Shown here piece by piece: positions 19,793 to 61,641 of a stretch of DNA of 64,000 bases (within the stretch, counting starts at the first letter, position 1; every line of letters starts with the position of its first letter). Under the pieces are notes generated by a model. That model worked only from the letters and a program-made list of their open reading frames with translations, made no database searches and was not told the origin of the DNA. A program made the translations under genes and the position numbers. Source of the stretch: Bacillus sp. Marseille-Q1617 (lineage in GTDB: Bacteria; Bacillota; Bacilli; Bacillales; Bacillaceae_B); assembly GCF_903645295.1 (NCBI RefSeq), contig NZ_CAHJXM010000002.1:162001-226000 (forward strand). The letters are read 5' to 3'.

Positions 19793-19980
19793 CTCTTTTT
19801 CTATATTTTCTTAAGACATGGGAGAGCAGTTTGCACTTTTTTATTATCTTTAAATAGTTTATAATTATCAGATAAAAGAAGTTATTTTTATCCATCAATC
19901 ATTATAATAGACTATGATATATTTAGTTTGAGACAGAGAAGATGTGTTCCTGGAGTGACGCCTTGCATTTTTGACACCTA

Positions 19981-20003
19981 AGCAGGAGCGCCTGCTCTTT
20001 TTT
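19981..20003 (+). terminator. Terminator-like hairpin in the mqo leader
   Basis: The perfect stem AGCAGG-AGCG-CCTGCT is followed by CTTTTTTAT and ends about 30 bases before the mqo start codon. It has the form of an intrinsic terminator and could attenuate mqo transcription or end a leader RNA. Confidence 0.6.
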
Positions 20004-20033
20004 ATGAAAATATTAAAGGTAAGGAAGGTTATC

Positions 20034-21536
20034 ATGAGCAGCATACAGAAGAAAACAGACGTTATCTTAATTGGTGCCGGAGTCATGAGTGCGACTTTGG
20101 GGTCATTACTGAAAGAGTTAGCACCGCAATGGGAAATCACAGTGTTTGAAAAGCTCAGTGAGCCGGGGGAGGAAAGCTCGAATGAGTGGAATAATGCAGG
20201 TACGGGACATGCTGCATTATGCGAGCTGAACTATACATCCGAAAAACCCGACGGCTCCATCGATATCACAAAAGCGATAAAGGTAAATGAACAGTTTCAG
20301 GTTTCGAGACAGTTCTGGTCTCATCTTGTCAACAGCAATCTAATCCGCAGCCCACAGGAATTCATCATGCCGCTTCCTCATATGAGTATGGTCCAAGGGG
20401 CTGAAAATGTGGAATTTTTGAAAAAACGATTGGAAGCGCTGTCAGTGAATCCGTTGTTTGAGGGCATGGAATTTTCAGACGATCCTGAAAAACTGAAAGA
20501 GTGGATCCCGCTGATCATGAATGGGCGAACGTCGAATGAACCGATCGCGGCCACCAAGATCGATTCCGGTACGGATGTCAACTTCGGTGCGTTGACACGC
20601 ATGTTATTCGACCACTTGAAGACTCAGAATGTCGAGGTCAACTACGGGCACAGTGTCCAGGACCTTAAACAAATGAGCGACGGTTCATGGGAAGTGAAGG
20701 TGCAGGACCTTGCCAATGGAAGAATCGAAACCCACACGGCGAAGTTCATCTTTATCGGTGGGGGAGGCGGAAGTCTTCACCTGCTTCAAAAGACGGGCAT
20801 ACCGGAATCCAAGCGTATCGGCGGATTCCCGGTGAGTGGACTCTTCATGGTGTGCAACAATCCTGAAGTCGTGGCGCAGCATCATGCAAAAGTATACGGC
20901 AAGGCGAAAGTCGGTGCTCCGCCAATGTCTGTGCCGCATCTTGACACACGCTTCATCGATCATAAAAAATCACTGTTATTCGGACCGTTTGCAGGCTTTT
21001 CTCCTAAGTTCCTGAAGACCGGTTCAAACCTGGACCTGATTACTTCCGTCAAACCGAACAACGTCCTGACAATGCTTGCGGCAGGCGCGAAGAATATGGG
21101 ATTGACAAAGTATCTGATCCAGCAGGTGCTTCTATCAAAAGAAAAGAGAATGGAAGAACTGCGTGAATTCATTCCTAACGCCAAAAGCGAGGATTGGGAT
21201 ATCGTTGTAGCCGGCCAGCGTGTGCAAGTGATCAAAGATACCGAAGCAGGCGGGAAAGGAACGCTTCAATTCGGTACGGAGGTGGTAAGTGCTTCCGACG
21301 GTTCGGTCGCTGCACTTCTTGGCGCATCCCCGGGTGCTTCCACTGCCGTTCACGTCATGCTAGAAGTACTGGATAAATGTTTCCCTCAGCATATGAAAGA
21401 GTGGGAACCAAAAATCAAGGAAATGATTCCTTCTTACGGCCTGTCGTTATCTGAGAATCCAGAGCTGTTCAGGGAAATCCACGCATCGACAGCCCATGCA
21501 CTGGGACTGAATGGAAGAGAGCTTGCTCATAGTTGA
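20034..21536 (+). CDS. mqo: Malate:quinone oxidoreductase
   Basis: The 500-residue flavoprotein has the FAD fingerprint [20 protein letters not shown] and family blocks [22 protein letters not shown]-like [30 protein letters not shown] and [20 protein letters not shown]. It oxidises malate to oxaloacetate at the membrane and passes electrons to quinone, replacing or complementing NAD-dependent malate dehydrogenase in the TCA cycle. I choose the ATG at 20034, preceded by AAGGAAGG; a longer frame from 19971 runs through the leader hairpin. A clear terminator follows. Confidence 0.95.
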
Positions 21537-23192: not shown

Positions 23193-23208
23193 TGTTTCAC
23201 GTGGAACA
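23193..23208. other. parS: ParB-binding site (parS)
   Basis: TGTTTCACGTGGAACA matches the Bacillus parS consensus TGTTNCACGTGNAACA at every fixed position and is nearly palindromic. It lies four bases after the YjiH stop. parS sites load ParB (Spo0J) and cluster around the replication origin, so the window is probably origin-proximal. Confidence 0.85.
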
Positions 23209-33450: not shown

Positions 33451-34977
33451 ATGGGTAAGCGGATTATCGTGGTTGGAGCAGGTCCCGGCGGCTTGGCGGC
33501 TGCCATGCTTCTGGCCGGTAAGGGATATGATGTAAACGTTTTTGAAAAGCAGGATTATATCGGCGGCCGGAATGCGGAGATCCGCCTGGGAGATTACAAG
33601 TTCGATATGGGACCGACATTTTTATCGATGTTTCATATTGTCGAAGAGTTGTTCTCCGCTGCGGACCGGAAAGCGTCGGATTACATGGAGGCGGTCGAAC
33701 TGAGGTCCATGTATGAATTGATCTTCGAGAACCGCAGAGTCGTCATGTCACGGGACCGGGAGCGCATGAAACAGGAAATCGAAGCCCACTATCCGGGCAA
33801 TGGGGAAGGGTATGAACGCTTCATGAATGAAACGGCAAAGAAGATGGAGGCCCTTTCCCCGGTGCTGCAGTCGAAGATGGACCGCTTCATGCATTATTTT
33901 CAGCCCAAGGTGCTTCAGGCACTTCCGGAACTTGAACTCGGACGTTCCCTCTACGATGTGCTGTCGCGTTATTTCACAGAAGAGGAACTGAAGCTCGCCT
34001 TTACGTTCCAGTCGAAATATCTCGGCATGTCGCCGTGGGAATGCCCGGGTGCCTTCTCGATCCTTTCTTATATGGAACATGCCTATGGGGTCTTCCATCC
34101 GATCGGGGGCGTGAATCAGCTTTCGAAGGCGATGGCCCGGGTGACTGAGGAGCACGGCGGTAAGATCCATACCGGCTCCGGGGTGAAGAGCCTGTGGATC
34201 GAAGGAAAAAAGGTACGGGGTGTCTATCTTGAAGACGGCCGCAGCGTGGAGGCGGAAGAAGTCATCATCAACAGCGATTTCGCCCATGCGATGACAAATC
34301 TTGTCGATGGCAATCAGCTGAAGAAGTACTCGCCGAAAAAACTCGCGAAAAAGAAGTATTCGTGTTCGACGTTCATGCTGTATCTCGGTCTCGACACGAT
34401 TTACAAGGATATGCCTCATCACACGATCGCTTTTTCAAAAGACTACAAAAAGAATGTCGAGGAAATCACGAAGGAGAAGATCCTCTCAGAAGATTCCTCC
34501 CTCTATATCCAGAATGCAAGCGTGACCGACCCGACGCTTGCTCCGGAAGGGAAGTCCACCCTGTATATCCTGGCCCCAGTGCCGAATAACTTCAGCGGAA
34601 TCGACTGGGAACAGGAAAAAGGAACCTTTCGTGAACTCATTCTGAAAACGGTCGAAGAAAAGACAGGATTCAAAAATCTTGAAGCTCACATAGACGTGGA
34701 AAAAATGATCACACCGAAGAACTGGGAACAGGATCTCTACGTCTATCAGGGAGCCACATTCAATCTTGGCCATCAGCTCTCGCAAATGATGGTGTTCAGG
34801 CCTCATAACCGTTTCGAGGAACTGGAATCCTGCTGGCTCGTCGGCGGCGGTACACATCCGGGCAGCGGGCTTCCGACGATCCTTGAATCGGCCCGTATCA
34901 CAGCTAACGGCATCCTGGAACAGGATCTGCAGGAATCGATCCCTGTATCTCCTCTTCCCATTATGGAGGGATTGTAA
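33451..34977 (+). CDS. crtN: Carotenoid desaturase (CrtI/CrtN family)
   Basis: The 508-residue FAD enzyme has the N-terminal dinucleotide fingerprint [20 protein letters not shown], the substrate-site signature [10 protein letters not shown], and the C-terminal family block [20 protein letters not shown]. This is the phytoene/diapophytoene desaturase family, which introduces conjugated double bases into a colourless C30 or C40 precursor. Placement with a second family member and a phytoene/squalene synthase gives a carotenoid operon. Whether it acts on C30 or C40 substrates is not fixed by sequence; Bacillaceae more often make C30. The stop overlaps the next start by one base. GGGAGGTCTTGTGA precedes the ATG. 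Confidence 0.88.
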
Positions 34978-36446
34978 TGAATACAGCGATCATTGGAGGC
35001 GGCGTCGGAGGGCTGATGAGTGCCTTGCTCCTGTCGAAACAGGGTGTAGAGGTGACCATTTATGAAAAAGAAGCACAGTTGGGCGGGAGATTGGCATTCG
35101 TGGAAAGGGACGGTTACCGGATCGACCAGGGACCGACCATCGTCCTTCTCCCCGAGATGTTTCAGGCCCTGCTGGAAGAAGCGGGAATTTCCCGGGACAG
35201 ATACGAACTGCTCTTATGCGACCCGCTCTATTCCCTTCAATTCCCCGACGGCCTGACATTCACGAAATACCCTGATCGGGACCGGCACCTCGAGGAAATG
35301 GAGAACGTGTTTCCACGTGAGGTCGAGGGGTTCAGGCAATTTTTAAAAGAAGGAAAAGAACGGTTCCGGATCGGGAAGAAATCGTTCCTGGAAGAGTCAT
35401 TCGTCAATCCATTTGATTTCTGGAAGCCGGGTAATCTCAAGTCGCTTTTCAAACTCAAACCCTATCAATCTGTCAAAACATTGATGTCCGGCTACTTTCA
35501 GGATGAGCGGCTGCAGACGATCTATGCGCTCCAGTCCCTCTATATCGGGGGAAATCCGTTTCAGTCGCCTGCCATGTATTCGCTCGTTTCCTTCGCGGAG
35601 CATCAATACGGCATCCATTACCTGAAGGGCGGGTATGCTAGCCTTGTCCCTGTATTGGAAGAAGAGCTCAGGAGACGGAATGTAAGGATCCATCTCAATT
35701 GCGAGGTGAAGGATATCCCGAGACAGGGCAAGCGGGTAACGGGAGTGAGGACAAGGGACGGTCTGCAACCCTATGATTCTGTCATTTTCAATGGAGACTT
35801 CCCGGGACTCGACCCATTGATCAAGAGGAAAGAAACAAGGGAATATGTACCGTCATCAGGTTGCGTGCTGCTGTATTTCGGCTTAAATAAAGTGTATGAC
35901 GATGTCAATGTACATCATTATGTGATGGGGGAAAGCTTTTCAAAACATATGAAAGATGTGTTCGGTGATAAGGTAATTCCGGATGATCCCGCCATTTATA
36001 CGTTTCATCCGTCCAAGATGGATGACAGCCTGGCACCAGAAGGCAAAGGCGTGCTGTATGCGCTCGTACCCGTCCCCTCTGACACGGATATCGATTGGGA
36101 AAACGAAAAAGAGTGGATCGATGGGCTAATTGACCGTTTGGAAAAACGGGCCTTCCCGGGGCTCCGTGAATCGATCGAATGGATGGAAGTCCGGACCCCG
36201 CAGGATGCAAAGCAATTCGGGCTTCACAGGGGCGGGAGCTTCGGCGTGGCACCGACCCTCCTGCAATCAGGCGTATTCAGACCCCAGGTCAAACCGTATC
36301 GCATCGGCAATCTTTACGCAGTCGGGGCGTCCATCCATCCCGGAGGCGGCATCCCGCTGGTTATGCAGGGAGCAAAACTTTTGGCCGATCAACTATTGAG
36401 CGATCAAAAAAATCCAGCGATAAAAGGAGTGAATGTACATGTATAG
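34977..36446 (+). CDS. Second CrtN-type carotenoid desaturase/oxidase
   Basis: The 489-residue protein is a paralogue of the upstream gene, with NTAIIGGGVGGLMSALLLSK, IDQGPTIVLLPEMFQALLEE and VGASIHPGGGIPLVMQGAKL. In Firmicute carotenoid clusters the second copy is often CrtNb/CrtP, which oxidises the terminal methyl of the desaturated chain to an aldehyde. That role is inferred from this pairing; it could also be a second desaturase. The first base of its ATG is the last base of the upstream TAA, and its end overlaps the synthase gene, so all three are translationally coupled. Confidence 0.85.
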   Translation: MNTAIIGGGVGGLMSALLLSKQGVEVTIYEKEAQLGGRLAFVERDGYRIDQGPTIVLLPEMFQALLEEAGISRDRYELLLCDPLYSLQFPDGLTFTKYPDRDRHLEEMENVFPREVEGFRQFLKEGKERFRIGKKSFLEESFVNPFDFWKPGNLKSLFKLKPYQSVKTLMSGYFQDERLQTIYALQSLYIGGNPFQSPAMYSLVSFAEHQYGIHYLKGGYASLVPVLEEELRRRNVRIHLNCEVKDIPRQGKRVTGVRTRDGLQPYDSVIFNGDFPGLDPLIKRKETREYVPSSGCVLLYFGLNKVYDDVNVHHYVMGESFSKHMKDVFGDKVIPDDPAIYTFHPSKMDDSLAPEGKGVLYALVPVPSDTDIDWENEKEWIDGLIDRLEKRAFPGLRESIEWMEVRTPQDAKQFGLHRGGSFGVAPTLLQSGVFRPQVKPYRIGNLYAVGASIHPGGGIPLVMQGAKLLADQLLSDQKNPAIKGVNVHV

Positions 36447-37284
36447 TGTCAAAGAAGCGTATAAACATTGTGAAAACATCATATCGCACCATTCCAAAAC
36501 CTTTTATAAAGCCTTCTCCATGCTGCCGAAAAACGAACGCAACGCCGTGTGGGCCGTCTATTCCTTTTGCCGGAAAGTGGATGATATTGTGGATGAGGGG
36601 AGTAACCCCGAAGTGGAACTTGCCCAGTTCAAAACGGAATTCGATCTGTTTTTAAAAGGAGACTCTGATTCCGCGAACCCTTCATGGATGGCCCTCAATG
36701 ATGTGTTCAAGCGCTATGAGATGAACGAACGTGCCTTTCATGACTTGATCAAGGGGCAGGAAATGGATTTAACGATCAACCGCTATGAAACCCTTGATGA
36801 GCTTCTGGACTACTCCTATCATGTCGCCAGCACGGTCGGGTTGATGCTCCTGCCGATCCTTGCCCCTGGTAAAACGGACGTGTTGGAAGAAGGTGGTGTG
36901 TCGCTCGGCCTCGCCATGCAGCTCACCAATATTCTGCGTGACATCAGTGAAGACCTTGAACGTGATCGGATCTACCTCCCCCGGGAAATCATGAAGCGTC
37001 ATGGGGTTACGGAAGGGTCGCTCCGAGCCGGTATCGTCGATGCTTCCTTCATCGACATGTGGGAAGAAATCGCCGGGCATGCCGAATATTATTATGGTGA
37101 AGCGTTCAAGACGATGAAAGAATACCCGCTTTCATCCCGAATCCCGGTGAAGGGTGCTGCGTATCTGTATCGGGCAATCCTCCCGACGATCCGTTCGAAG
37201 GAATATACCGTGTTCGGTCAGAAACATTATGTAGCAGAGGAAACGAAGAAGGAAATTGTGGTTGGTTTGAGCTCACTTTGTTGA
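36439..37284 (+). CDS. crtM: Phytoene/squalene synthase family protein
   Basis: The 281-residue protein has both aspartate-rich motifs of head-to-head prenyl synthases: CRKVDDIVDEG (D48, D49, D52) and QLTNILRDISEDLERDRIYLP. The N-terminal HSKTFYKAFSMLP matches phytoene and dehydrosqualene synthases. It condenses two prenyl diphosphates into the carotenoid precursor. It is called crtM on the assumption of a C30 pathway; crtB (C40) is the alternative. AAAGGAG lies ten bases before ATG 36439; ATG 36433 is also possible. It overlaps the desaturase stop by eight bases. Confidence 0.87.
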   Translation: MYSVKEAYKHCENIISHHSKTFYKAFSMLPKNERNAVWAVYSFCRKVDDIVDEGSNPEVELAQFKTEFDLFLKGDSDSANPSWMALNDVFKRYEMNERAFHDLIKGQEMDLTINRYETLDELLDYSYHVASTVGLMLLPILAPGKTDVLEEGGVSLGLAMQLTNILRDISEDLERDRIYLPREIMKRHGVTEGSLRAGIVDASFIDMWEEIAGHAEYYYGEAFKTMKEYPLSSRIPVKGAAYLYRAILPTIRSKEYTVFGQKHYVAEETKKEIVVGLSSLC

Positions 37285-37881: not shown

Positions 37882-38679
37882 ATGGCTGAAAATTTACTAT
37901 TGGCGTTCGGGTTAACATTGATGGCCGGGCTTGCGACCGGGATCGGAAGCTGTCTTGCATTCTTTGCCTCAACTACGAATACGAAGTTCCTGTCGATATC
38001 GCTCGGTTTTTCGGCCGGGGTGATGATTTATGTGTCGATGATCGAGATTTTTGTAAAGGCGCAGGATGCACTTGTATCCGCAATGGGCGTCACACAAGGG
38101 AACTGGGTGACGGTTGCAGGTTTTTTCGGCGGGATCATCTTGATTGCATTGATCGATAAGTTGATCCCGAAGCAGGGGAATCCCCATGAACTAAAGAAAG
38201 TCGAGGATATGAATAAGCCGGGAAATGCGAAGCTCTTAAAAATGGGTACATTCACCGCGCTCGCCATCGCAATCCATAACTTCCCGGAAGGAATCGCCAC
38301 GTTCACATCCGCCCTGCAGGACCCGTCGCTCGGGATTGCCATTGCAGTGGCGGTCGCAATCCACAATATCCCGGAAGGAATTGCAGTGTCCGTTCCGGTT
38401 TATTTTGCAACGGGTGATAAGAAAAAGGCATTCAAGCTTTCTTTCCTATCCGGTTTATCAGAGCCGGTCGGAGCGGTGGTGGCTTACCTGGTTTTGATGC
38501 CTTACCTGAACGATATCATGTTCGGGATCATCTTTGCTGCCGTTGCCGGGATCATGGTATTCATCTCGCTGGATGAGCTGCTGCCGGCCGCGAAACAGTA
38601 TGATGAAGCCCACCTGTCCATTTATGGGACGATCGCCGGAATGGCGGTTATGGCGGTAAGTTTATTGTTGTTTATTTAG
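37882..38679 (+). CDS. zupT: ZIP-family zinc transporter ZupT
   Basis: The 265-residue protein has eight membrane helices with the metal-site helices ALAIAIHNFPEGIATF and AVAVAIHNIPEGIAVSVPVY, the GLSEPVGAV helix, and a short cytoplasmic loop. It is the GufA/ZupT-type ZIP importer of zinc and other divalent metals. GAAGGAGAACATAT precedes the ATG. It is a single-gene unit with no Zur-type operator recognised. Confidence 0.93.
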   Translation: MAENLLLAFGLTLMAGLATGIGSCLAFFASTTNTKFLSISLGFSAGVMIYVSMIEIFVKAQDALVSAMGVTQGNWVTVAGFFGGIILIALIDKLIPKQGNPHELKKVEDMNKPGNAKLLKMGTFTALAIAIHNFPEGIATFTSALQDPSLGIAIAVAVAIHNIPEGIAVSVPVYFATGDKKKAFKLSFLSGLSEPVGAVVAYLVLMPYLNDIMFGIIFAAVAGIMVFISLDELLPAAKQYDEAHLSIYGTIAGMAVMAVSLLLFI

Positions 38680-42675: not shown

Positions 42676-42876
42676 AAAATCATCACCCTCATCTATGGTT
42701 TTTATCTTTTTCAACTGTTTTCTCTCAATAACTTTTTTACACACTACCCTTTTCCCGAATTGGTTTTTCATAAACGGATACTTTTTGTGTAATCCATTTT
42801 TTACAAGTGGTAGAATGATAGTTTTTATAAATCAAAAAGTACTAATTTCTAACCAATTAATGGTTGTTTACAAATT

Positions 42877-43001
42877 TGTATACTTGTATACATTTACGTA
42901 CACAATTGTAGACAAAAATGTATACAAGTATACAAAGTCGTGTACATATTGTTATATATGGATGTGTACGATTTTGTGTACAACGAAACATAAATGTATA
43001 C
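42877..43001. promoter_or_regulatory. Iteron array, putative parC-like centromere
   Basis: TGTATAC or a close variant (TGTACA, CGTACA, TGTAGAC) occurs at 42877, 42885, 42897, 42907, 42919, 42928 (inverted sense), 42941, 42965, 42977 and 42995. Spacing is mostly 8-13 bases, i.e. about one per helical turn. The core is palindromic (GTATAC, GTAC), so the orientation is ambiguous. It lies directly upstream of a ParM-like gene, the position of parC/parN in type II partition systems, and may double as the promoter/operator. Confidence 0.75.
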
Positions 43002-43134
43002 AAATAGGTCGAACATTACAGTTGTATGATAGAGTTGAAAGTAGGATTGACCGGAGGCCGGAAGTGTTTTAATCTTTGATTAAGAGTTTAAATTTTTTGA
43101 TAAATTTTTACTTCTATATGAAAGGATGATTTTT

Positions 43135-44316
43135 TTGACGAACTCTCGAATTGCTGCAATTGATGTAGGTAATGATTCCCTTAAAGGTATTTTTGGAAAA
43201 TTGGACAGCGAACTGAATATCCCCAATGTGATTGCAAGGGACATTGAAGATCGTCCGATTATCGGGATCGAGGAACTGGACAAGCAAGACCCTCTAGATG
43301 GAATACATATCCGCGTCCACTCCCCTGCCCTGCAGGATAACAATGCTATTTACCGTGTAGGTAATCTGGCAACGAAAAGCAATAACTCCACTGAATTGGA
43401 TCCGGGGAGCAGTAAATCCGAAGAAGACCAAACACTGATCATGCTGTTTGCTTCATTGGCACTTGATGCTGCTGAACAGGATTCACTATTTAAAAAGAAT
43501 AATAATGTCATAGAAGCGAACTATACGCTCGGTACAGGTCTTCCCCTTCGTGAAGTAAAGGAAGGTAAAGATGTCGGCTACCGTTCGAAGCTTCTTGGAT
43601 CTGTCCACCAGGTTGAATTCCTTGTGACACCGCGCCACCAAGGCATCAAGGTGAATATTAAGTTTGATGAAGTGAAGGTGTATCCTGAAGGATTCGCGGC
43701 GTTCATCAATCTTGTGATGGACAATAACGGTAATATCATCAATAAGGACCTGATCGATAAGCGCATCCTAATCCAGGATATCGGCGGACTTTCAACTGAT
43801 ATCGCCGTGATCAAGAATCGTAAAGTGGATGATGACAAAGCACAGGGCTTCAACCTCGGTGTGTCTGAATCGCTTGAATTGATCCGTGAAGAAATCCGTT
43901 CGAAATACGGCATCGAGCTCGACAGCCGCCGTGACGTGGTGGAAATCATCACGAAGAAAAATGACCGCAACCACATCATGGTCAAAGGAAGCCGTACAAG
44001 CGTGCATGAAATCGTCGACCGTATCCTTGTGGAACTTGCGAAGAAGCAGTACCGCCACCTCCGCAATATGTGGCAGAAGAACTCACAGACGGAAATCTGC
44101 TACTTCATCGGCGGCGGATCCAGCGTTCTTAAGGAATATATCAAGACGCTCAATAACAACCTGGACGGCTACAACATCGACTTCTTCGAAGACGAAAACG
44201 AAAGCATCTGGATGATGGCTAACGCGTACTACAAACTAATCGCTGATTTTTCAAGAAAGAACCAACAGCAGAACCAAAAGAAAGAAGACGAGAAAAAATT
44301 AGCGAAAACCAAATAG
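43135..44316 (+). CDS. ParM/StbA family actin-like protein
   Basis: The 393-residue protein has actin-type nucleotide motifs: phosphate 1 RIAAIDVGNDSLKGIFG, phosphate 2 ILIQDIGGLSTDIAVI and the adenosine motif CYFIGGGSSVLKEYI. It belongs to the ParM/StbA family, whose filaments push or pull DNA through an adaptor bound at a centromere. The tail is Lys/Gln/Glu-rich. The TTG at 43135 is nine bases after GAAAGG and is favoured over ATG 43126, which abuts it. The next gene encodes a small DNA-binding-type partner ten bases downstream. Whether it acts on the chromosome or is left from a plasmid is open. Confidence 0.88.
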   Translation: MTNSRIAAIDVGNDSLKGIFGKLDSELNIPNVIARDIEDRPIIGIEELDKQDPLDGIHIRVHSPALQDNNAIYRVGNLATKSNNSTELDPGSSKSEEDQTLIMLFASLALDAAEQDSLFKKNNNVIEANYTLGTGLPLREVKEGKDVGYRSKLLGSVHQVEFLVTPRHQGIKVNIKFDEVKVYPEGFAAFINLVMDNNGNIINKDLIDKRILIQDIGGLSTDIAVIKNRKVDDDKAQGFNLGVSESLELIREEIRSKYGIELDSRRDVVEIITKKNDRNHIMVKGSRTSVHEIVDRILVELAKKQYRHLRNMWQKNSQTEICYFIGGGSSVLKEYIKTLNNNLDGYNIDFFEDENESIWMMANAYYKLIADFSRKNQQQNQKKEDEKKLAKTK

Positions 44317-44325
44317 GGTGATTGT

Positions 44326-44925
44326 ATGAAAGAAAAGGGGATGTCAAGGGGGCAGCCGATCACGTTCCGCCTCCCCTCCGATACGCCTGATCATATTTTG
44401 AAGCATTTGCAGAAGCTTAAGGAAACAGAGAAGCGGAATTTCTCGAGCAAGATTGCAGAGCTTGTCGTAAACGGGATCAATGAGTCTGTCTCCAAGCAGC
44501 GTGAAGCGATAACCATTCCGCTGCCGAGGGCACTCGACAAGTCTCAGCGCGACTGGCTGAAGCATGAACATTCGGAGGCACTGCTCGGCAGCATCGTCTA
44601 TCAGTTATTGACGAATCCTGTCAGGACCGCCTCCCTGCTTACCCCTCTCAACAGCAATGCAATGGATGTGGATGACGTGCTGTTCCATCAGGAGGAGACG
44701 GCTGCAAGCCGGGATTCTTCCCGTGAATGGTCGCTTGATTCGGTCATCGGGGATGATGAACAGGAGCCGGAAGTGGAAGAGAGATCTCATTCCACGGATG
44801 AAGACCTCGACGGCTTTGATTGGGAAAGTGCCATGAAATCGCGTCAGCCGGAAGAGGATGAAGAGCCGAAGGAAGAAAGCATGGAAGACCTGCTCGGCGA
44901 CTTCCTGTCACAGATGAATAAATAA
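44326..44925 (+). CDS. ParR-like adaptor with N-terminal RHH-type domain
   Basis: The first 60 of 199 residues (ITFRLPSDTPDHILKHLQKL, then KETEKRNFSSKIAELVVNGI) fit a ribbon-helix-helix DNA-binding domain. A middle part (PRALDKSQRDWLKHEHSEAL) follows, then a long acidic, probably disordered segment, and a conserved-looking C-terminal helix MEDLLGDFLSQMNK. This matches ParR-type adaptors, where the N-terminus binds the iterons and the C-terminal peptide contacts the actin filament. The assignment rests on context plus this layout; sequence similarity to known ParR is not obvious to me. AGGGTGATTG precedes the ATG. Confidence 0.72.
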   Translation: MKEKGMSRGQPITFRLPSDTPDHILKHLQKLKETEKRNFSSKIAELVVNGINESVSKQREAITIPLPRALDKSQRDWLKHEHSEALLGSIVYQLLTNPVRTASLLTPLNSNAMDVDDVLFHQEETAASRDSSREWSLDSVIGDDEQEPEVEERSHSTDEDLDGFDWESAMKSRQPEEDEEPKEESMEDLLGDFLSQMNK

Positions 44926-44951
44926 TCGAAGGTTAAATTGAAGGCCCGTCC

Positions 44952-46433
44952 CACTAGCGTTGCACGAAAGTAATTAAATTGAATATATTCAATTATTTTA
45001 CATCTATTTTGAGTTTCTAAATTAAAAAAGGGAAGTAAGGTGTTAACTCAACCTTGTTCCCTTTTTTTTACATATGTATAATGTGCCATTGTTATTTCTT
45101 CTTCGTTTTCTTTTCTTTCACCATCACAATCCCAGTATCACCAAAAAACAGATTCTTTTTCCCCAGAGGTTTTTGCACTTTCTGCCTTCCTTTGGATGGT
45201 TTCTTCCTTCGGTTTAACTCATTCAAGATTCTGTCTGCCGGTTGGAATAAATAAATCTGTAAGACTCGAAAGAAGTTCCATGCCGTCTTCGTTGAGTTCA
45301 GTTGAAGCTTGATTAACAGTGATAGCCCGTATGCGATTAGTGCTAGAAACATGTGATTCCAGATACCTTGCGGTTTGGTACTCCATATCTTTTTCATCTT
45401 GAGATGACCCTTTATCCATTTGAAGAAGAGTTCAATCAACCATCGGTTTTTGTAGATTTCGAGGATTTCCACATCCGTTAAATCAAAGCGAGTGGTCAAA
45501 ATCCGATATACTTGATTCTTTTCATCGACAAACTCAATGTAGCGAACGGGTTCATTTGAAATACCAAAATTAACGGTCTCGTCTTTTAGAACAGACGAGT
45601 GAGTTGGTTCTCGTTCTTCCAATGTGTAAAGAACTAAGTTCTTTCCAATACGGGCAACAAAATCAATTTCTTTGTCCAACCAGTCCATCAAGTTTTTCTT
45701 CGATCCATACCCTCTATCCATGACATAGGTAGCGTTAGCCTCTTCAATGATGACATCTGAGCTTTCAAAGTCTGTCACATTACCCGTTGAAGGGACGATT
45801 TTATCTGGAAACACTGTATTTTTGGAAGTGACAACCAATCGTGTATGCATTTTAACAGCATTATGGCCCTTTGAAATAAAGGCCCAGTCACACATGTTTT
45901 CAGGTAACCGAAATTCTGTAGAATCCACGATGTTCAAACGTCCAATCGCATTCGAAATACCGTTTTGCTTCCGAGTGTAGTGACGAACTTTAGCCATTAC
46001 TTTGATAAAAACACTTTGTACTACCTCGGTAGAAAGATCGTTGATCCGCCGGCTTATTTGAGAGCCACTAATCCCGTTGACATTCAATAGTTTCATTAGA
46101 TCGGTATACGCTCGGATCTTTTCTTCAATATGAGAATACGAACTCATCTGATCCAGGTGCGCAGCCACACCTATCCTTAATAGGGCTTCGGTAGTCAGCT
46201 TCTTTCCATAATCAAGAAGAGGACATTGTAAATCTTCCGTAGGAAGTTGGGATAAACATTGACAAATTAACATTCTTTGACCTATACTTTTACTCATTGC
46301 GTGAGCTCCTTTTGTAGAAGATTAGGGAACGTTTAGGTCACTATCTTCTACATTAGGGCTTTTTTTGTTTTTGTAAAGAAATTTTACCATTTTGCGTTAT
46401 TTTACATATTTTTGAAGTCGTGCAACGCTAGTG
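44952..46433. mobile_element. IS4-family insertion sequence, complete
   Basis: The 1482-base element is bounded by perfect 16-base inverted repeats, CACTAGCGTTGCACGA at 44952-44967 and its complement at 46418-46433. It is flanked by 9-base direct repeats GGCCCGTCC (44943-44951 and 46434-46442), the target duplication. It holds one transposase gene on the minus strand. All ends are intact, so it may still be active or a recent arrival. Confidence 0.95.
45092..46297 (-). CDS. IS4-family transposase (DDE)
   Basis: The 401-residue transposase has the DDE triad with D125 (NIVDSTEFR), D194 (YVMDRGYGSK) and E289 in the IS4 signature Y282-x2-R285-x3-E289-x6-K296 (YKNRWLIELFFKWIK). It is undisrupted, and AAAAGGAGCTCACGCA precedes its ATG. 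The C-terminus is very basic (KEKKTKKK). The subgroup within IS4 is not certain. It catalyses cut-and-paste movement of the flanking element. Confidence 0.94.
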   Translation of the reverse strand: MSKSIGQRMLICQCLSQLPTEDLQCPLLDYGKKLTTEALLRIGVAAHLDQMSSYSHIEEKIRAYTDLMKLLNVNGISGSQISRRINDLSTEVVQSVFIKVMAKVRHYTRKQNGISNAIGRLNIVDSTEFRLPENMCDWAFISKGHNAVKMHTRLVVTSKNTVFPDKIVPSTGNVTDFESSDVIIEEANATYVMDRGYGSKKNLMDWLDKEIDFVARIGKNLVLYTLEEREPTHSSVLKDETVNFGISNEPVRYIEFVDEKNQVYRILTTRFDLTDVEILEIYKNRWLIELFFKWIKGHLKMKKIWSTKPQGIWNHMFLALIAYGLSLLIKLQLNSTKTAWNFFRVLQIYLFQPADRILNELNRRKKPSKGRQKVQKPLGKKNLFFGDTGIVMVKEKKTKKK

Positions 46434-49340: not shown

Positions 49341-49601
49341 ATGAGTATTCAAAAGAGTACGGATAGTTCCAGTCTCGCTGAAGTAATTGACAGGATTTTG
49401 GATAAAGGGATCGTAATCGATGCCTTTGCAAGGGTATCCCTTGTGGGTATTGAAATCCTCACAGTCGAAGCAAGAGTAGTCATTGCAAGCGTGGACACTT
49501 GGCTGCGCTATGCTGAAGCAGTCGGCCTCCTCCGCGATGAGGTTGAAGAAGAAGGGCTTGCCAGACAGGAAAATGATAGAAACAAACAATTCAGCATTTA
49601 A
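49341..49601 (+). CDS. gvpA: Gas vesicle structural protein GvpA
   Basis: The 86-residue protein is a typical Gvp[41 protein letters not shown] and [10 protein letters not shown]. It polymerises into the ribs of the gas-vesicle wall. It is first in a fourteen-gene operon in the same order as in B. megaterium, and GAGAGGAGTGAAAGG precedes the ATG. It differs from GvpB (50721) at only about 11 positions, mostly at the ends. Confidence 0.97.
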
Positions 49602-49664
49602 CGATAGAAATAGAAGTTGCTAACCATTTTTAAATAAATCAGTTTTAAGAAAAGAGGATGAAAC

Positions 49665-50165
49665 ATGGCAGAAAAAGAAAAGCAGGAAAAACAAAATCAG
49701 GAAGAACAAAATCAGCAAGATCAAACCAACCAAACTGAATCAAAAGACGGCGGGCGTTCAAATATGAACGTGAATTACGCCATCATCGGCGGAGTTGTCG
49801 GTGCAGGTGTCGGGCTGCTCAGTCATCCCGGCACCGGAAAAAAGATTGCCGGCAGCCTGGGTAAATCCGAAGTCGTTCGCATCGCAGGGAACGAACTGCG
49901 CAGAACGGCCCAGGAGTTCATTACGGAACAGGCCATGATCACATTAAGGCAGACGGCTGCGGGATATGTAAGTAAATATGAAAATGGGCTATTGCCATTC
50001 AATAAGAAAAAGGAAGAGGAGAAAGCCCAAGAAGAGCAGGAAGAAACTTCGTCTTCTGCGCAAAACGATGAAATTGAAGAAATCAAAGAAGAAAACAAGA
50101 ATCTGAATGAGCGATTGGAACGCATCGAAGAAATGCTCAGCAGCCTTGTGGAGTCAAAAAAATAA
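49665..50165 (+). CDS. gvpP: Gas vesicle protein GvpP
   Basis: The 166-residue protein has a Gln/Glu/Asn-rich start, a hydrophobic Gly-rich helix (YAIIGGVVGAGVGLLSHPGT) like YtxH-type proteins, then a basic-amphipathic region and a C-terminal coiled coil (EIEEIKEENKNLNERLERIE). It is second in the operon, the position of gvpP in B. megaterium. Its precise role is not known. The related layout in gvpT (55127) suggests that the two share an origin. Confidence 0.85.
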   Translation: MAEKEKQEKQNQEEQNQQDQTNQTESKDGGRSNMNVNYAIIGGVVGAGVGLLSHPGTGKKIAGSLGKSEVVRIAGNELRRTAQEFITEQAMITLRQTAAGYVSKYENGLLPFNKKKEEEKAQEEQEETSSSAQNDEIEEIKEENKNLNERLERIEEMLSSLVESKK

Positions 50166-50204
50166 CGGTTCAACTGAAATGGGCGTTTCCGAAGGGGGAA
50201 TGAC

Positions 50205-50696
50205 ATGGGTAAGTCAGCAGCACAAAAAGCAGCCGGTAAGATGGCTGAAACAATCGTCGAGTACACCCCGGAACCGGTCAAGGACAAGGTAAAAGACAAG
50301 GTGAAGGAAAAAGCCAAGGAAAAATTTGTGGAAGGCGTCCAGGACAAAGTTGAAGGCGGTATTCAATCAAAAGCCAATGAGGCTGCTGAAAAGCTTCAAA
50401 AAGCGAAGGATAAAAATGCAGAAAATGTTCACACGAAAGCGGAGGAAGCGAAGGAAAAAGTACAGGAAGTTCTGCTTTCAGTCCGCGAGAAGTTAGGAAA
50501 TGCCAAGGAAGCCGGTGAAGAATTTCAAGATAAAATCTCTTCATCGAAAAAAGACAAGACCAAATTGAAAAGTGTCTCGGACATCAAGGGAGTAAGTGAT
50601 ATCAAGAGTTCCATGAACATCAAGAGTTCCACGGATATCAAAAGCTCCACCAACATTAAATCGTCGACTGACATCAAAACGATCAGTTCAAGGTAA
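50205..50696 (+). CDS. gvpQ: Gas vesicle protein GvpQ
   Basis: The 163-residue protein is highly charged and helical, with Lys/Glu-rich heptad-like segments (VKDKVKDKVKEKAKEKFVEG). It ends in a six-residue repeat built on DIKSST/NIKSST (about residues 125-160). GGGGGAATGAC precedes the ATG. Its position, third in the operon and before gvpB, matches gvpQ of B. megaterium. It is an accessory protein of unknown detail; no catalytic motif is present. Confidence 0.83.
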   Translation: MGKSAAQKAAGKMAETIVEYTPEPVKDKVKDKVKEKAKEKFVEGVQDKVEGGIQSKANEAAEKLQKAKDKNAENVHTKAEEAKEKVQEVLLSVREKLGNAKEAGEEFQDKISSSKKDKTKLKSVSDIKGVSDIKSSMNIKSSTDIKSSTNIKSSTDIKTISSR

Positions 50697-50720
50697 AAGC
50701 ACCGAAGGGAGATTTTTTAA

Positions 50721-50981
50721 ATGGCAATTCAAAAAACAACAGACAGTTCAAGTTTAGCAGAGGTAATTGACCGTATTCTCGACAAAGGTATCGTCATCGA
50801 TGCGTTCGCAAGGGTATCAGTAGTCGGTATTGAAATATTAACAGTTGAAGCGAGAGTCGTAATCGCCAGCGTCGACACATGGTTACGTTATGCAGAGGCA
50901 GTTGGGCTGCTTCGTGATGATGTGGAAGAAAACGGCCTTGCAAATCAGGAAAATGAAAGAAGTTCACAATTTAGTATTTAA
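50721..50981 (+). CDS. gvpB: Gas vesicle structural protein GvpB (GvpA paralogue)
   Basis: The 86-residue protein is nearly the same as GvpA ([40 protein letters not shown]) with small changes at both ends ([16 protein letters not shown]). In B. megaterium, gvpB is the main structural gene of the cluster. GAAGGGAGATTTTTTAA precedes the ATG. A hairpin follows before gvpR, which could raise the amount of the upstream structural transcripts relative to the rest. Confidence 0.95.
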
Positions 50982-51008
50982 TGCATGATGGAAAGGGGAA
51001 GTTAAAAA

Positions 51009-51045
51009 GGGGATCCGAAAAAGGATCACCCTCCCCATTTTTTTA
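51009..51045 (+). terminator. Intra-operon hairpin between gvpB and gvpR
   Basis: GGGGATCC-GAAAAA-GGATC, with outer GGGG / CCCC pairing across a bulge, is followed by ATTTTTTTATG. It resembles an imperfect intrinsic terminator inside the operon. Confidence 0.6.
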
Positions 51046-51067
51046 TGTCTAGAGTAAGGAGGCCATT

Positions 51068-51334
51068 ATGAAGATCAAAGAAATCATGGGAAATGTATCC
51101 GATTTCTTCAATGAACACGTAGCTCCCGTCCATAAGATTACTTCAGTAGAAGTAAGGGAAGAGGAGGGCTGGCGTGTGATTGTGGAAGTAATTGAAGAAA
51201 AGGAATACATGAAGAAGTACGCCAAAGATGAAATGCTTGGCACGTATGAAGTCCTTCTTGATAAAGACAAGGAAGTCATATCGTTTAAACGCCTTGATAT
51301 TCGTTACAGAAGTGCGATCGGACAGGAAATGTAG
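51068..51334 (+). CDS. gvpR: Gas vesicle protein GvpR (GvpO family)
   Basis: The 88-residue protein has the GvpO-type pattern ITSVEVREEEGWRVIVEVIE and GTYEVLLDKDKEVISFKRLD. These form an alternating beta-sheet domain with no membrane segment. It is fifth in the operon, as gvpR in B. megaterium. The role is accessory to vesicle assembly or regulation. AAGGAGGCCATT precedes the ATG. Confidence 0.87.
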   Translation: MKIKEIMGNVSDFFNEHVAPVHKITSVEVREEEGWRVIVEVIEEKEYMKKYAKDEMLGTYEVLLDKDKEVISFKRLDIRYRSAIGQEM

Positions 51335-51362
51335 CGGCAAGTGAGTAGGAGGGAAAACCAAC

Positions 51363-52277
51363 GTGACAGTCTTAAGGAACAGTATCAAAAAAGACAGCAG
51401 GGCCATCGTGCAGGATGAGGAAACGGAGGAATTGATGACTCGTTCGCTGCACTATCTTAAAGCTGGTTACCCTGTGCATTTTACAGGCCCCTCAGGAGCC
51501 GGGAAAACCTCCTTTGCGCTCGCTTTAGCCAAGAAAAGAAAGCGGCCCGTCATGCTCATACACGGAAATCATGAATTAAATAATAGAGATTTAATCGGTG
51601 ACTTTACAGGCTATACAAGTAAAAAGGTTGTCGACCAGTATATACGCTCCGTTTATAAAAAGGATGAAAGCGTAACAGAGACCTGGAGGGACGGCCGGCT
51701 GCTCGAAGCGGCTAAAAATGGCTATACACTTGTTTATGATGAATTCACGAGGTCGCAGCCGACCACGAATAATATCTTTTTATCGATTTTAGAAGAGGGA
51801 GTCATCCCTTTATACGGAACGAAATTAACGGAACCGTTTGTGAAGGTCCATCCGGATTTTTCAGTGATTTTCACCAGTAACCCGGCAGAGTATGCAGGGG
51901 TTTATGATACCCAGGATGCCCTGTTGGATAGGATGATCACCATCCCGGTCGATTTCATGGACAGTGAACGTGAAGCGATGATCGTATCGGAGAAAGCGGA
52001 CCTGGTGATTGAAGAAGCCCGGACCATTACGTCGATCATTTCTTCATTAAGAGAACAATGTACAAAGGAAAACGAACACGGACCAAGCTTGCGTGCATCC
52101 CTGATGATTGCAAGGCTATCCATTGAATTAGACATTCCCATAGACGGTGAAAACAAAGAGTTTCAGCGCCTATGTATTGATATAGCAGGTAACAGCGTGA
52201 AACGCGGCATTGAAGCCGATAATCCCAGAGAAAAAGCGGAACAATTGATCATAGATGCATGCGTAGGCATGAAGTGA
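51363..52277 (+). CDS. gvpN: Gas vesicle AAA+ ATPase GvpN
   Basis: The 304-residue protein is a MoxR-like AAA+ ATPase with Walker A GPSGAGKTSF (about residues 41-50), Walker B TLVYDEFTRSQ (about 121-131), sensor region FSVIFTSNPAEYAG and a C-terminal helical lid. GvpN is needed for vesicles to enlarge to full width and length. It starts at GTG after GGAGGGAAAACCAAC. It is directly downstream of gvpR. Confidence 0.95.
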   Translation: MTVLRNSIKKDSRAIVQDEETEELMTRSLHYLKAGYPVHFTGPSGAGKTSFALALAKKRKRPVMLIHGNHELNNRDLIGDFTGYTSKKVVDQYIRSVYKKDESVTETWRDGRLLEAAKNGYTLVYDEFTRSQPTTNNIFLSILEEGVIPLYGTKLTEPFVKVHPDFSVIFTSNPAEYAGVYDTQDALLDRMITIPVDFMDSEREAMIVSEKADLVIEEARTITSIISSLREQCTKENEHGPSLRASLMIARLSIELDIPIDGENKEFQRLCIDIAGNSVKRGIEADNPREKAEQLIIDACVGMK

Positions 52278-52299
52278 TATACAAAGGAGAGTCTTACTC

Positions 52300-53067
52300 A
52301 TGAGCCAAGAGAATGGAATTTATGTATTTTGCGCAATTCAGACAGATAAGAAGGAAGAATCGTTCGGGTCAGTGGAGTTAGAAGGAGAAAAGCGTGACGT
52401 CTTCACAATCACTTACAAAGATGCTGCGATGGTGGCGGCTGAAGTACCAATGAAGATCTATCATCCGAAGAAAGAAAATCTCTTGATGCATCAGGAAACG
52501 GTATCAAAAGTGATGAGCGAGAATGACACGGTCATTCCAATCAGCTTCGGTAACGTTTTTCAGAGCAAAGAGGATGTAGAGGCGCTGCTTGAAAATCTTT
52601 ACCCTCAATTTGAAAAGCTCTTCCCGGCCATCAAAGGAAAAATTGAGATAGGTCTTAAAGTGATCGGTAAGAAAGAATATCTTGAAAAAATGGTAAAAGA
52701 AAATCCTGAAATGGTAAAAATGTCTTCTTCCGTGAAAGGTAAATCAGAATCCGCTGCTTATTATGACCGCATCAAACTTGGCGGCATGGCGCAAAAGCTC
52801 TTTACTTCCCTTCAAGAGGAAATGAAGAGTGAAATTTTCGAGCCCCTGGAAGAAACAGCCGAAGCTGCAAAAGCAAATGAGCCTTCGAGCGAAACGATGC
52901 TTCTCAACGCAGCATTCCTAATCGATCGCGATAAAGAAGAAGCATTCGATCAAAAAGTGAATGAAGCTCACGAAAAGTGGAAGGATAAGGTCGACTTTCA
53001 TTACAGCGGACCATGGCCGGCGTATAACTTCGTCAACATCCGCTTAAAGGTAGAGGAAGCCGGATGA
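52300..53067 (+). CDS. gvpF: Gas vesicle protein GvpF
   Basis: The 255-residue protein belongs to the GvpL/GvpF family: NGIYVFCAIQ at the start, DTVIPISFGNVFQSKEDVEA, KIEIGLKVIGKKEYLEKM, and the C-terminal FHYSGPWPAYNFVNIRL. GvpF is a minor vesicle component that interacts with GvpA and probably aids nucleation. It overlaps gvpG by four bases (ATGA). AAAGGAGAGTCTTACTC precedes the ATG. Confidence 0.93.
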   Translation: MSQENGIYVFCAIQTDKKEESFGSVELEGEKRDVFTITYKDAAMVAAEVPMKIYHPKKENLLMHQETVSKVMSENDTVIPISFGNVFQSKEDVEALLENLYPQFEKLFPAIKGKIEIGLKVIGKKEYLEKMVKENPEMVKMSSSVKGKSESAAYYDRIKLGGMAQKLFTSLQEEMKSEIFEPLEETAEAAKANEPSSETMLLNAAFLIDRDKEEAFDQKVNEAHEKWKDKVDFHYSGPWPAYNFVNIRLKVEEAG

Positions 53068-53321
53068 TCCATAAGTTGGTCAGTGCGCCAATTAATATGG
53101 TCATTAAAGTCGGTGAAAAGGTTAAAGAAGAAGCAGATAAAGAATTATACGACCTTCCTACCATTCAGCAAAAGCTGATTCAGCTTCAAATGATGTATGA
53201 GCTTGGTGAAATCCCTGAGGAAGCCTTTCAGGAAAAAGAAGACGAATTGCTGGCACGATATGAAATCGCGAAGCAGCGTGAGATGGAGCAATGGGAAGAA
53301 TTGACGAAGAAGAAAGAATGA
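53064..53321 (+). CDS. gvpG: Gas vesicle protein GvpG
   Basis: The 85-residue, largely helical protein has the GvpG pattern LVSAPINMVIKVGEKVKEEA, DLPTIQQKLIQLQMMYELGE and IPEEAFQEKEDELLARYEIA. It is a minor, essential assembly factor of gas vesicles. Its ATG overlaps the gvpF stop, so translation is coupled, and gvpL starts 10 bases after its stop. Confidence 0.92.
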   Translation: MIHKLVSAPINMVIKVGEKVKEEADKELYDLPTIQQKLIQLQMMYELGEIPEEAFQEKEDELLARYEIAKQREMEQWEELTKKKE

Positions 53322-53331
53322 GGGTGAAAGA

Positions 53332-54138
53332 ATGAGCGACTTACATTATTTATATGGCTTGATACCAACGAACGAAGCAAATGATCAATCGCTTCCCTCT
53401 ATAACGGGTTTTGATGGTGAGAGCGATCTTTTCACCATCGAGGTTGGAGATGTGACAGCCATTGTGTGCACGATCGACTCCGATAAACATTCGGAAGAAG
53501 ACTTAAAGGATAAGATTGAAAATGATATGGAATGGCTGCAGGAAAAAGCATTCCATCATCATGAAACCGTATTGATGGTGTCGAAGATGTATACCATCGT
53601 CCCTTTGAAATTCTGTACGCTTTACAAGAACGAGGACAGCTTAAAGGACACCGTAGAAAGCAACCGCAATAAGCTTTTGAGCACCTTCTCGAAGTTGAAG
53701 GGCAATGAAGAATGGAACCTCAAGATCTTCTGTAATGACAAAGAGCTCAGGGAAGAAGTGAGTAATAGCAATCCGGCGATAGAAGAAAAACGACAAGAAA
53801 TCAGTGAATTGCCGAAAGGAAGGCAGTTTTTTGAAAAGAAAAAAATCGACCAGCTGATCGATCAAGAGCTCGAGAATGAAAAAAACAGGATTTGTGAAGA
53901 AGTCCATGAAAAGCTTAAAGAAAAGGCACTCGAAGGCAGTGTGAAGAAAAACTGGGGTAAAGACGTCACTGGGCGCCAGGAAAACATGGCATGGAACAGT
54001 GTGTTTCTGATTGAGGAAGATAAAGTGGATGACTTCATCAGTGAAGTGAACCGATACAAGGAAGAACTCGAGAAAACAGGCTGGAGTTTCGAAGCTTCGG
54101 GTCCTTGGCCTCCTTACCATTTCTCAAGTTTTTCATAA
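53332..54138 (+). CDS. gvpL: Gas vesicle protein GvpL
   Basis: The 268-residue protein is a paralogue of GvpF: LHYLYGLIPTNEAND, LMVSKMYTIVPLKFCTLYKN, LKIFCNDKELREEVSNSNPA and the family ending EASGPWPPYHFSSF. GvpL is a hub that contacts several other Gvp proteins during early assembly. AGGGTGAAAGA precedes the ATG. The length is usual for the family. Confidence 0.93.
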   Translation: MSDLHYLYGLIPTNEANDQSLPSITGFDGESDLFTIEVGDVTAIVCTIDSDKHSEEDLKDKIENDMEWLQEKAFHHHETVLMVSKMYTIVPLKFCTLYKNEDSLKDTVESNRNKLLSTFSKLKGNEEWNLKIFCNDKELREEVSNSNPAIEEKRQEISELPKGRQFFEKKKIDQLIDQELENEKNRICEEVHEKLKEKALEGSVKKNWGKDVTGRQENMAWNSVFLIEEDKVDDFISEVNRYKEELEKTGWSFEASGPWPPYHFSSFS

Positions 54139-60410: not shown

Positions 60411-60683
60411 ATGAAGCAAACGAATCTGTCAATTGGCAATCAAAGAGTTCATTACAAAACGGCAGGTGTCTTGTTAATACATGCTTCAGAGCCTGCTGAG
60501 CTAGGGGATTCAAGAGAAAAAGGTATCCGTTCATTGAAAGAAAAAGTTTCTGATGCAGAGGTTCATCAGAAAAAAGGCGGTCACAATCTTCACTGGGATG
60601 ACCCTGTTGGAATCGGGGACATGGTCAAAAATTTTACGGGAAGTATAGAAGATAGATATGTTCCACGTGAAACCAAGGAGTGA
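60411..60683 (+). CDS. Hypothetical protein upstream of msrAB
   Basis: I do not recognise a family. The 90-residue product ([20 protein letters not shown] onward) is polar, with a possible helix [20 protein letters not shown] and no membrane segment. GGGTGAGGGAAGA precedes the ATG at 60411. It lies seven bases after the CHY gene and four before the msrAB start, so all three probably form an operon. A parS-like site lies in its last codons. Confidence 0.65.
60659..60674. other. parS: Probable parS site (one mismatch)
   Basis: TGTTCCACGTGAAACC matches TGTTNCACGTGNAACA except for the last base. It lies inside the end of the small gene and just before the msrAB ribosome site. Confidence 0.65.
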
Positions 60684-60687
60684 TGAA

Positions 60688-61641
60688 ATGGTACATGAGA
60701 AAGCGACCTTCGCAGGCGGATGTTTCTGGTGCATGGTCGAGCCTTTTGACGAACAGGAAGGCATCATCGATATCCGCTCCGGCTATACCGGAGGGGAGAC
60801 TGAGCATCCAACTTATAAAGAAGTGATATCGGGCGATACGGGTCATGTTGAAGCAGTTCAGATCACATTCGACCCCGATATGTTTCCTTACAAAAAGTTA
60901 TTGGACTTGTTTTGGCAGCAGATTGATCCGACAGATGCGGGCGGCCAGTTCAAAGACCGCGGCGAATCATACAGGACGGCAATCTTTTATCATATTGAAT
61001 CACAAAAGGAGCAGGCGATACAATCAAAGAAAGACCTTTCGGAGAGCGGCCGATTCAATGAGCCGATCGTAACGGAAATCCTTCCAGCTGTAACCTTCTA
61101 TGAAGCGGAGGAGTATCACCAGGATTTTTATAAGAAAAATGCCTTCCGATACGCCTTGTACAAGAGAGGGTCGGGAAGGGAAGAGTTTAAGCGGACATAT
61201 TGGCCTGCTGATCGTTCGCATCTGCGCGTATCGTTGAGCGATATGCAATACTATGTCACCCAGGAAAATGGGACGGAACCTCCTTATGAAAATGAATATT
61301 GGAATAATACTGAAGACGGTCTTTATGTCGATGTAGTAAGCGGCGAACCGCTGTTCACTTCGAAAGACCAATATGACAGCGGGTGCGGATGGCCCAGTTT
61401 TACGAAACCGGTGATGGACGCGAGTGTGAAGGAGAGATATGACCTTTCACATAAATCGACACGCGTGGAAGTGAGAAGCAGGGAAGGTGGTTCCCATCTC
61501 GGCCATGTGTTCACGGACGGACCGGGACCTAAGGGACTCCGGTACTGCATCAATTCTGCAGCTCTCAGATTCATCCCGAAGGAACGGTTGGAAGCTGAGG
61601 GATACGGGGACTTTTTGATTTTATTCAATGGAAAAAAATAA
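60688..61641 (+). CDS. msrAB: Fused peptide methionine sulfoxide reductase MsrA-MsrB
   Basis: The 317-residue protein joins MsrA (catalytic Cys12 in [37 protein letters not shown]-like [16 protein letters not shown]) with MsrB ([22 protein letters not shown] and catalytic [13 protein letters not shown]). The MsrB part lacks the zinc-binding CxxC pair, having [10 protein letters not shown] at that place, as in many Firmicutes. It repairs both S- and R-forms of methionine sulfoxide. The start is ATG 60688 after AAGGAGTGATGAA. It is the last gene of a short operon. Confidence 0.93.

Follow-up and report, generated by a model that had tools for sequence, protein, structure and literature searches.

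The window (the whole stretch of 64,000 nucleotides of Bacillus sp. Marseille-Q1617 that was analysed) contains a compact ParMRC-like cassette, in which an iteron array is followed by a gene for an actin-like protein and a gene for its partner. The parts of the cassette, and the neighbouring features used below, are the following:

42865..43002, + strand: iteron array, a putative parC-like centromere and operator, made of TGTATACA 8-bp palindromes and variants (TGTNNACA)
43126..44316, + strand: gene for an actin-like ATPase of the Alp7A-like/ParM kind, 396 aa (open reading frame, Pfam, PHROGs)
44326..44925, + strand: gene for the partner protein, a putative ParR-like centromere-binding adaptor, 199 aa (open reading frame, 9 bp after the actin stop)
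44347..44499, + strand: predicted ribbon-helix-helix (RHH) region of the partner, residues 8–58 (sequence pattern and AlphaFold2)
44887..44922, + strand: near-invariant C-terminal peptide of the partner, which ends in LLGDFLSQMNK (alignment of relatives)
19971-21536: mqo
23193-23208: parS-like site, no mismatch
37882-38679: zupT
49341-54138: gas vesicle genes (two GvpA-like, two GvpL/F, one AAA ATPase)
60658-61641: msrAB
60659-60674: parS-like site with one mismatch, overlapping the start of the msrAB open reading frame as called (60658)

Both open reading frames of the cassette are confirmed where the initial annotation had placed them. The comparison with relatives covers 81 loci, namely the best 80 of at least 365 relatives found and the window locus; by their titles, the 80 belong to Rossellomorea, Sutcliffiella, Heyndrickxia, Peribacillus, Cytobacillus, Metabacillus, Jeotgalibacillus, Sporosarcina, Pseudalkalibacillus, Alkalihalophilus, Pontibacillus and others. 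The actin and partner genes are side by side and in the same direction in all 81 loci, with a gap of 5–15 bp. Array, actin and partner travel together, in this order, as one module, which supports the three-part, type II-like architecture that had been read from the window. Other gene families near the cassette are common to 19 of the 81 loci at most, and this weakens the earlier suggestion that the cassette stabilises an integrated element.

The neighbours had been described as chromosomal in appearance, which is confirmed by the presence of mqo, zupT, msrAB, a DUF2817 protein (Pfam) and the two parS-like sites; the three named genes and the parS-like sites agree with a chromosome. The possibility that the contig is a plasmid was also checked: the cassette DNA has no match in 72,556 plasmid records, and the cassette of the relatives is often on the same contig as dnaA. 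The 120 best of 1778 protein relatives are 82–100% identical, and many of them are on contigs of hundreds of kilobases to megabases. Carriage by a low-copy plasmid, which is usual for type II systems without being a strict rule, is not found here, and the cassette is almost certainly real and chromosomal.

An insertion element of the DDE_Tnp_1 type lies just behind the partner gene (about 44947-46423 of the window, with a transposase open reading frame at 45092-46297). By eye, inverted repeats form its two ends, with a GGCCCGTCCC direct repeat on the outside, and in two related loci (L001 and L002) the flanks are nearly continuous across its position. A carotenoid-type cluster is found at 34977-37284, where phytoene desaturase-family and phytoene/squalene synthase-like genes adjoin.

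The actin-like protein probably starts three codons later than called, at a TTG at position 43135, which is the start used by most aligned relatives. Its C-terminal domain places it in the Alp7A-like family (Alp7A_like_C, PF22128, 122.5 bits for a cut-off of 22); MreB-like_C and ALP_N are also above their Pfam cut-offs, and in PHROGs the protein matches phrog_691, "partition protein", with 150 bits. ALP_N, Alp7A_like_C and phrog_691 identify it as an actin-like ATPase of the ParM/Alp kind, as in type II systems. The ParM model PF21523 gives 26.3 for a cut-off of 27.4, and is thus 1.1 bits short, while the NCBIfam ParM model PRK13917 is far under its cut-off (34 vs 417 bits). AAIDVGNDSLK, QDIGGLSTD and CYFIGGG, which we take to be the nucleotide motifs, look intact by eye, so the earlier statement that the phosphate and adenosine motifs are preserved stands.

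Eight TGTATACA sites with at most one mismatch are found within the array, to which three looser copies can be added by eye; the initial count of about ten iterons upstream of actin is therefore upheld. Over the whole window there are 42 such sites (at most one mismatch), compared to 14.8 expected and to 27 in the largest of 100 shuffles. Summed over the 81 loci, 494 TGTNNACA sites fall within 420 bp upstream of actin, where shuffled sequence has 11 on average; a stretch of equal length behind the partner has six. When the start codons are corrected, the upstream count is 499, with a median of six per locus (six in locus L050) and a minimum of three, so that centromere-like iterons are present, as sequence, in 81 of 81 loci. 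The start-to-start spacings of the TGTNNACA sites in the relatives are mostly 8, 12 and 20–22 bp, and the pairwise distances cluster again at 41–42 bp, as expected for helically phased sites.

The partner was described as having an RHH-like N-terminus. Residues 8–58 indeed show a strand (ITFRLPSD) followed by helix, turn and helix, presumably the classic RHH pattern, and AlphaFold2 predicts helices at 22–34 and 39–58 with a pLDDT of 76–85 over residues 11–50 and 56 over residues 51–60, in a model whose overall confidence is low (pLDDT 66, pTM 0.26). The RHH assignment is consistent with the sequence pattern and, weakly, with this model, and it did not gain a family or fold match. Pfam gives scattered weak matches for 63 members, NCBIfam and PHROGs give nothing usable for the partner, a profile search of the PDB gives no match, Foldseek gives five matches to the model, all with E of at least 3, and VIA-align finds no fold match on ten chains. 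Several relatives of the partner are publicly named "uL1 family ribosomal protein" or "ribosomal L1 domain-containing protein". Ribosomal_L1 matches two of the 63 members (best E 0.1), which does not support the label, and this naming looks like a misannotation.

Plasmid partners have a homologous core: when they are searched with a profile built from the 81 partners, four out of six match over the first 105 residues or so (E 1.8e-31 to 6.7e-17), a fifth matches weakly (5e-4) and the sixth does not match. The six plasmid proteins have 133–168 residues, compared to 199 in the window, and by eye the C-termini of four of them carry a motif like FAKxxFLNFDDDD. The chromosomal partners have a longer acidic tail, with a DDDLDxFDWE-like motif and a near-invariant end (consensus LLGDFLAQMNK) which is not seen in the six plasmid partners; in the window protein, a helix is predicted by AlphaFold2 at residues 186–198. 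The C-terminal peptide that had been noticed as conserved-looking is thus near-invariant among chromosomal relatives, and on this alignment it is a candidate actin- or host-binding peptide. In plasmid R1, the C-terminus of ParR contacts ParM, and by analogy the tail of the partner is likely to be the filament contact. A one-chain prediction of actin and partner gave no support for an actin–tail contact (mean pLDDT 44.8). The changed tail may mark a change of job.

The actin sequences draw a sharp line between chromosomal and plasmid cassettes. The protein matches 116 plasmid records, all below 60% identity (37.8–45.5% for the 26 best), and three phage records at about 25%. A tree of 81 chromosomal and six plasmid sequences is split at one long branch (99/95). 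Among 30 chromosomal genomes, the mean identity is 84.3% and the minimum 75.3%, so domestication from a plasmid would not be recent. The initial annotation had offered a domesticated plasmid module as one of three options; this may hold for a remote origin, given the homologous core of the partners and the presence of TGTATACA on one plasmid, and would not hold for a recent one.

The plasmid in question is that of Bacillus subtilis MH-1 (L114), whose actin is 41.6% identical and which has TGTATACA repeats in the 300 bp upstream of actin. Three other plasmid loci (L111, L115 and L112) have, by eye, TTTGCAAACA- or TGCATGCA-like repeats; the centromere specificity thus seems to have shifted on plasmids. 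The shared repeat and the shared N-terminal core could be explained by an anti-plasmid or incompatibility locus, whose array and partner, when an Alp7A-type plasmid enters, would titrate its partition machinery or cause it to pair wrongly, and so protect the host or decide which plasmids are kept. We consider this very improbable, since the three other plasmids have different repeats, the best plasmid actins are as distant as stated above, and such a function predicts neither a position close to the origin nor a strong conservation of the actin.

The cassette is widespread and its distribution is patchy. Among 299 genomes sampled evenly from the order (E 1e-60 for actin), 145 have one high-scoring copy (741–835 bits) and 154 have no match. 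Three of the 145 have an additional, distant copy at 240–325 bits, and the interval from 325 to 741 bits is empty. In the class sample, orthologues are present in 20 of 299 genomes, and eight genomes have distant copies only (230–327 bits). PF22128 is absent from 14 of 14 control genomes, including Bacillus subtilis, and this absence, together with the 154 genomes without a match, indicates that the lineage can do without the cassette. Sporulation was considered as a correlate of cassette presence and is uninformative, because Spo0A is found in 293 of the 299 genomes.

Within the chromosomal lineage, the divergence of the actin follows that of DnaA in the 30 genomes (Mantel r 0.66, reached by none of 2000 permutations). 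The mean identity of DnaA is 90.5%, and the actin is more conserved than DnaA in just 23 of 435 pairs. The partner is more variable (mean identity 62.3%) and tracks the actin (r 0.89). These sequence comparisons indicate that inheritance of the cassette has been broadly vertical.

A gene order identical to that of plasmid cassettes and the patchy presence would both suit an ancient integrated plasmid of which a selfish or addictive remnant has been conserved, with no segregation function today. This seems improbable in view of the mean actin identity of 84% in 30 genomes, the one high-scoring copy and the near-invariant tail of the partner; in addition, no shared toxin or integrase family is seen among the 45 commonest neighbour families (by eye, on the first residues).

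The position of the cassette relative to dnaA is constant. Of the 145 positive genomes, 80 with large contigs were selected for a dnaA search: the two genes are on the same contig in 67 and not in 13, and in all 67 the actin gene is 5′ of dnaA and on the opposite strand. Similarly, 37 further genomes were taken from the loci; 26 are testable and all agree, while 11 have the genes on different contigs. Over the 117 genomes examined, the cassette is therefore on the 5′ (left) side of dnaA, on the opposite strand, in 93 of the 93 that have both on one contig (24 have them on different contigs). These genomes are related, so that they do not represent 93 independent events. The distance between actin and dnaA ranges from 36 to 313 kb, with a median of 88 kb, based on 81 exact distances; in 12 of the 67 genomes, whose records start at or near dnaA, it is rough and rests on sizes rounded to 0.1 Mb. 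For the window's own cassette, the distance to oriC may be gauged through relatives only: the testable loci of its own tree clade (L003, L009, L010, L012, L013 and L014) are 62–96 kb from dnaA, and that of Rossellomorea marisflavi (L015) is 229 kb away.

Two genes of the window were used as controls. mqo, about 21 kb from the array, is found in 62 of the same 67 genomes; it keeps the region and strand of the cassette in 44 of 56 testable cases and is elsewhere in 12, and it is on another contig in six. zupT is closer to the array (about 4.2 kb); it occurs in 17 genomes, and none of nine testable ones has it in that region. Among the positions listed, spo0A is on the left side and on the opposite strand in 23 of 26 genomes, which suggests that the chromosome arms are generally stable here and that much of the fixed position of the cassette may reflect an inherited gene map and not selection for proximity to the origin. 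The proximity could then be meaningless, the result of one insertion near the origin that was simply inherited, in a cassette that stabilises another replicon or acts under special conditions. The spo0A result speaks for this explanation, which we nevertheless find rather unlikely, because mqo is elsewhere in 12 of 56 testable genomes and zupT in nine of nine, compared to none of 93 for the cassette. It overlaps the other alternatives, and the likelihoods given to the alternatives do not add up to one.

The best explanation, by a narrow balance of probability, is a chromosomal, origin-proximal, actin-type system for segregation or positioning. Of the three options initially put forward, that of a chromosome-acting filament gains the most, because there is one orthologue per positive genome, because the divergence is correlated to that of DnaA and because the position near the origin is constant. 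A type II-like mechanism, with the partner on the array and its tail on the filament, is quite probable; for an action on the chromosome origin in cells the chances are evenly balanced. In the proposed mechanism, the partner would bind the iterons through its RHH domain and repress its own promoter. The multimeric complex of partner and DNA would cap or nucleate the actin filaments via the C-terminal tail, and filament growth would move or anchor the origin region of the sister chromosomes, beside ParABS (Soj/Spo0J).

Indeed, two strong ParB-family matches per genome, taken to be Spo0J and Noc, are found in 35 of 35 genomes with large first contigs; by eye, these genes are found near dnaA or, where a record starts with dnaA, near the end of that record. 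The cassette would therefore add to ParABS, which it does not seem to replace. It is possible, if somewhat doubtful, that about half of the sampled species of the order have in this way a second, actin-powered apparatus for segregating the chromosome origin, in addition to ParABS. Its own centromere array would lie 36–313 kb to the left of dnaA, and the new C-terminal peptide of its adaptor would connect the origin with actin filaments or with a host cell-cycle factor. A widespread, single-copy family linked to the origin in culturable Bacillaceae would allow a direct test of whether bacterial chromosomes are ever moved by actin-like filaments. That the B. subtilis control genome lacks PF22128 may explain why the cassette has been left unstudied.

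The motor of ParABS is ParA, a Walker ATPase. The cassette resembles ParABS (Soj/Spo0J/parS) in being an origin-proximal locus, and ParABS is present alongside it, to judge from the ParB-family genes of the cassette-bearing genomes and the two parS-like sites of the window; its motor and its DNA site are different, and its role is putative whereas that of ParABS is chromosome segregation. The type II ParMRC systems of R1 and pSK41 have the order centromere, actin, adaptor, with iterons and an RHH adaptor. The cassette shares this order and the iterons, with a predicted RHH in its adaptor, but it is chromosomal and its actin scores far too low with PRK13917. Alp7A/Alp7R is the system of the B. 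subtilis plasmid pLS20. Like Alp7A-like plasmid cassettes, the present one has the Alp7A_like_C domain and an actin gene followed by a partner gene, and repeats lie upstream of some of the plasmid cassettes too; it differs from them in the low identity of the actins and in the length and C-terminus of the partner.

The closest precedent for a chromosomal location is given by the chromosome-encoded ParMs (cParMR) of Desulfitobacterium hafniense and Clostridium botulinum (PMC12270681, JBC 2025). According to the available part of that paper, two chromosomal ParMs form filaments, ParR binds upstream repeats in Cb-cParCMR, and Bt-cParM1/2 of Bacillus tropicus are conserved on several Bacillus chromosomes. 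The sequences of these Bacillus tropicus proteins have the accessions WP_001968526 and WP_000025611. The likeness to the cassette extends to a chromosomal actin-like gene with a neighbouring ParR-like gene, to the upstream repeats, to the high conservation within a genus and to the co-occurrence with ParABS. The sequence relation is weak, however (E 0.028 between Dh-cParM1 and the window actin), and the available part of the text gives neither an origin position nor a Bacillaceae-wide count; a search in it for oriC, origin and dnaA returned general or reference-list uses only. A search of the available literature for an origin link of a chromosomal ParM-type cassette found no report. What is new here, compared to the known chromosomal ParMRC-like kind, is the breadth, the origin linkage and the tail of the partner.

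The same paper also suggests that the functions of chromosomal ParMs could go further than the segregation of plasmids (PMC12270681). The cassette could accordingly encode a cytoskeletal filament with a cargo other than the chromosome (cell shape, septum or an organelle such as gas vesicles), with an array that is an operator only and a partner that represses the operon. The gas vesicle cluster, which starts about 4.4 kb behind the partner gene, would fit such a cargo, as would the gas vesicle families near the cassette in about 14–17 of the 81 loci. We judge this explanation unlikely, because such neighbours occur in a minority of the loci and a median of six TGTNNACA sites per locus exceeds the need of a simple operator. 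A role in gas vesicle partition was rated low, since most loci have no gvp genes nearby.

A strict triple-pattern scan for further arrays gave matches in 17 of 35 genomes, many of them just upstream of actin; as 18 of the 35 have no match, this pattern is too strict for counting arrays. Six genomes (G005, G146, G223, G002, G016 and G274) have matches away from actin that resemble, by eye, a different paired operator, a simple repeat or an isolated match. A GTATAC pair with a 10-bp repeat comes back, outside the actin region, at G005:C1:497850, G146:C1:3426055, G223:C1:2796749 and G002:C1:207814, and is probably the operator of another regulator.
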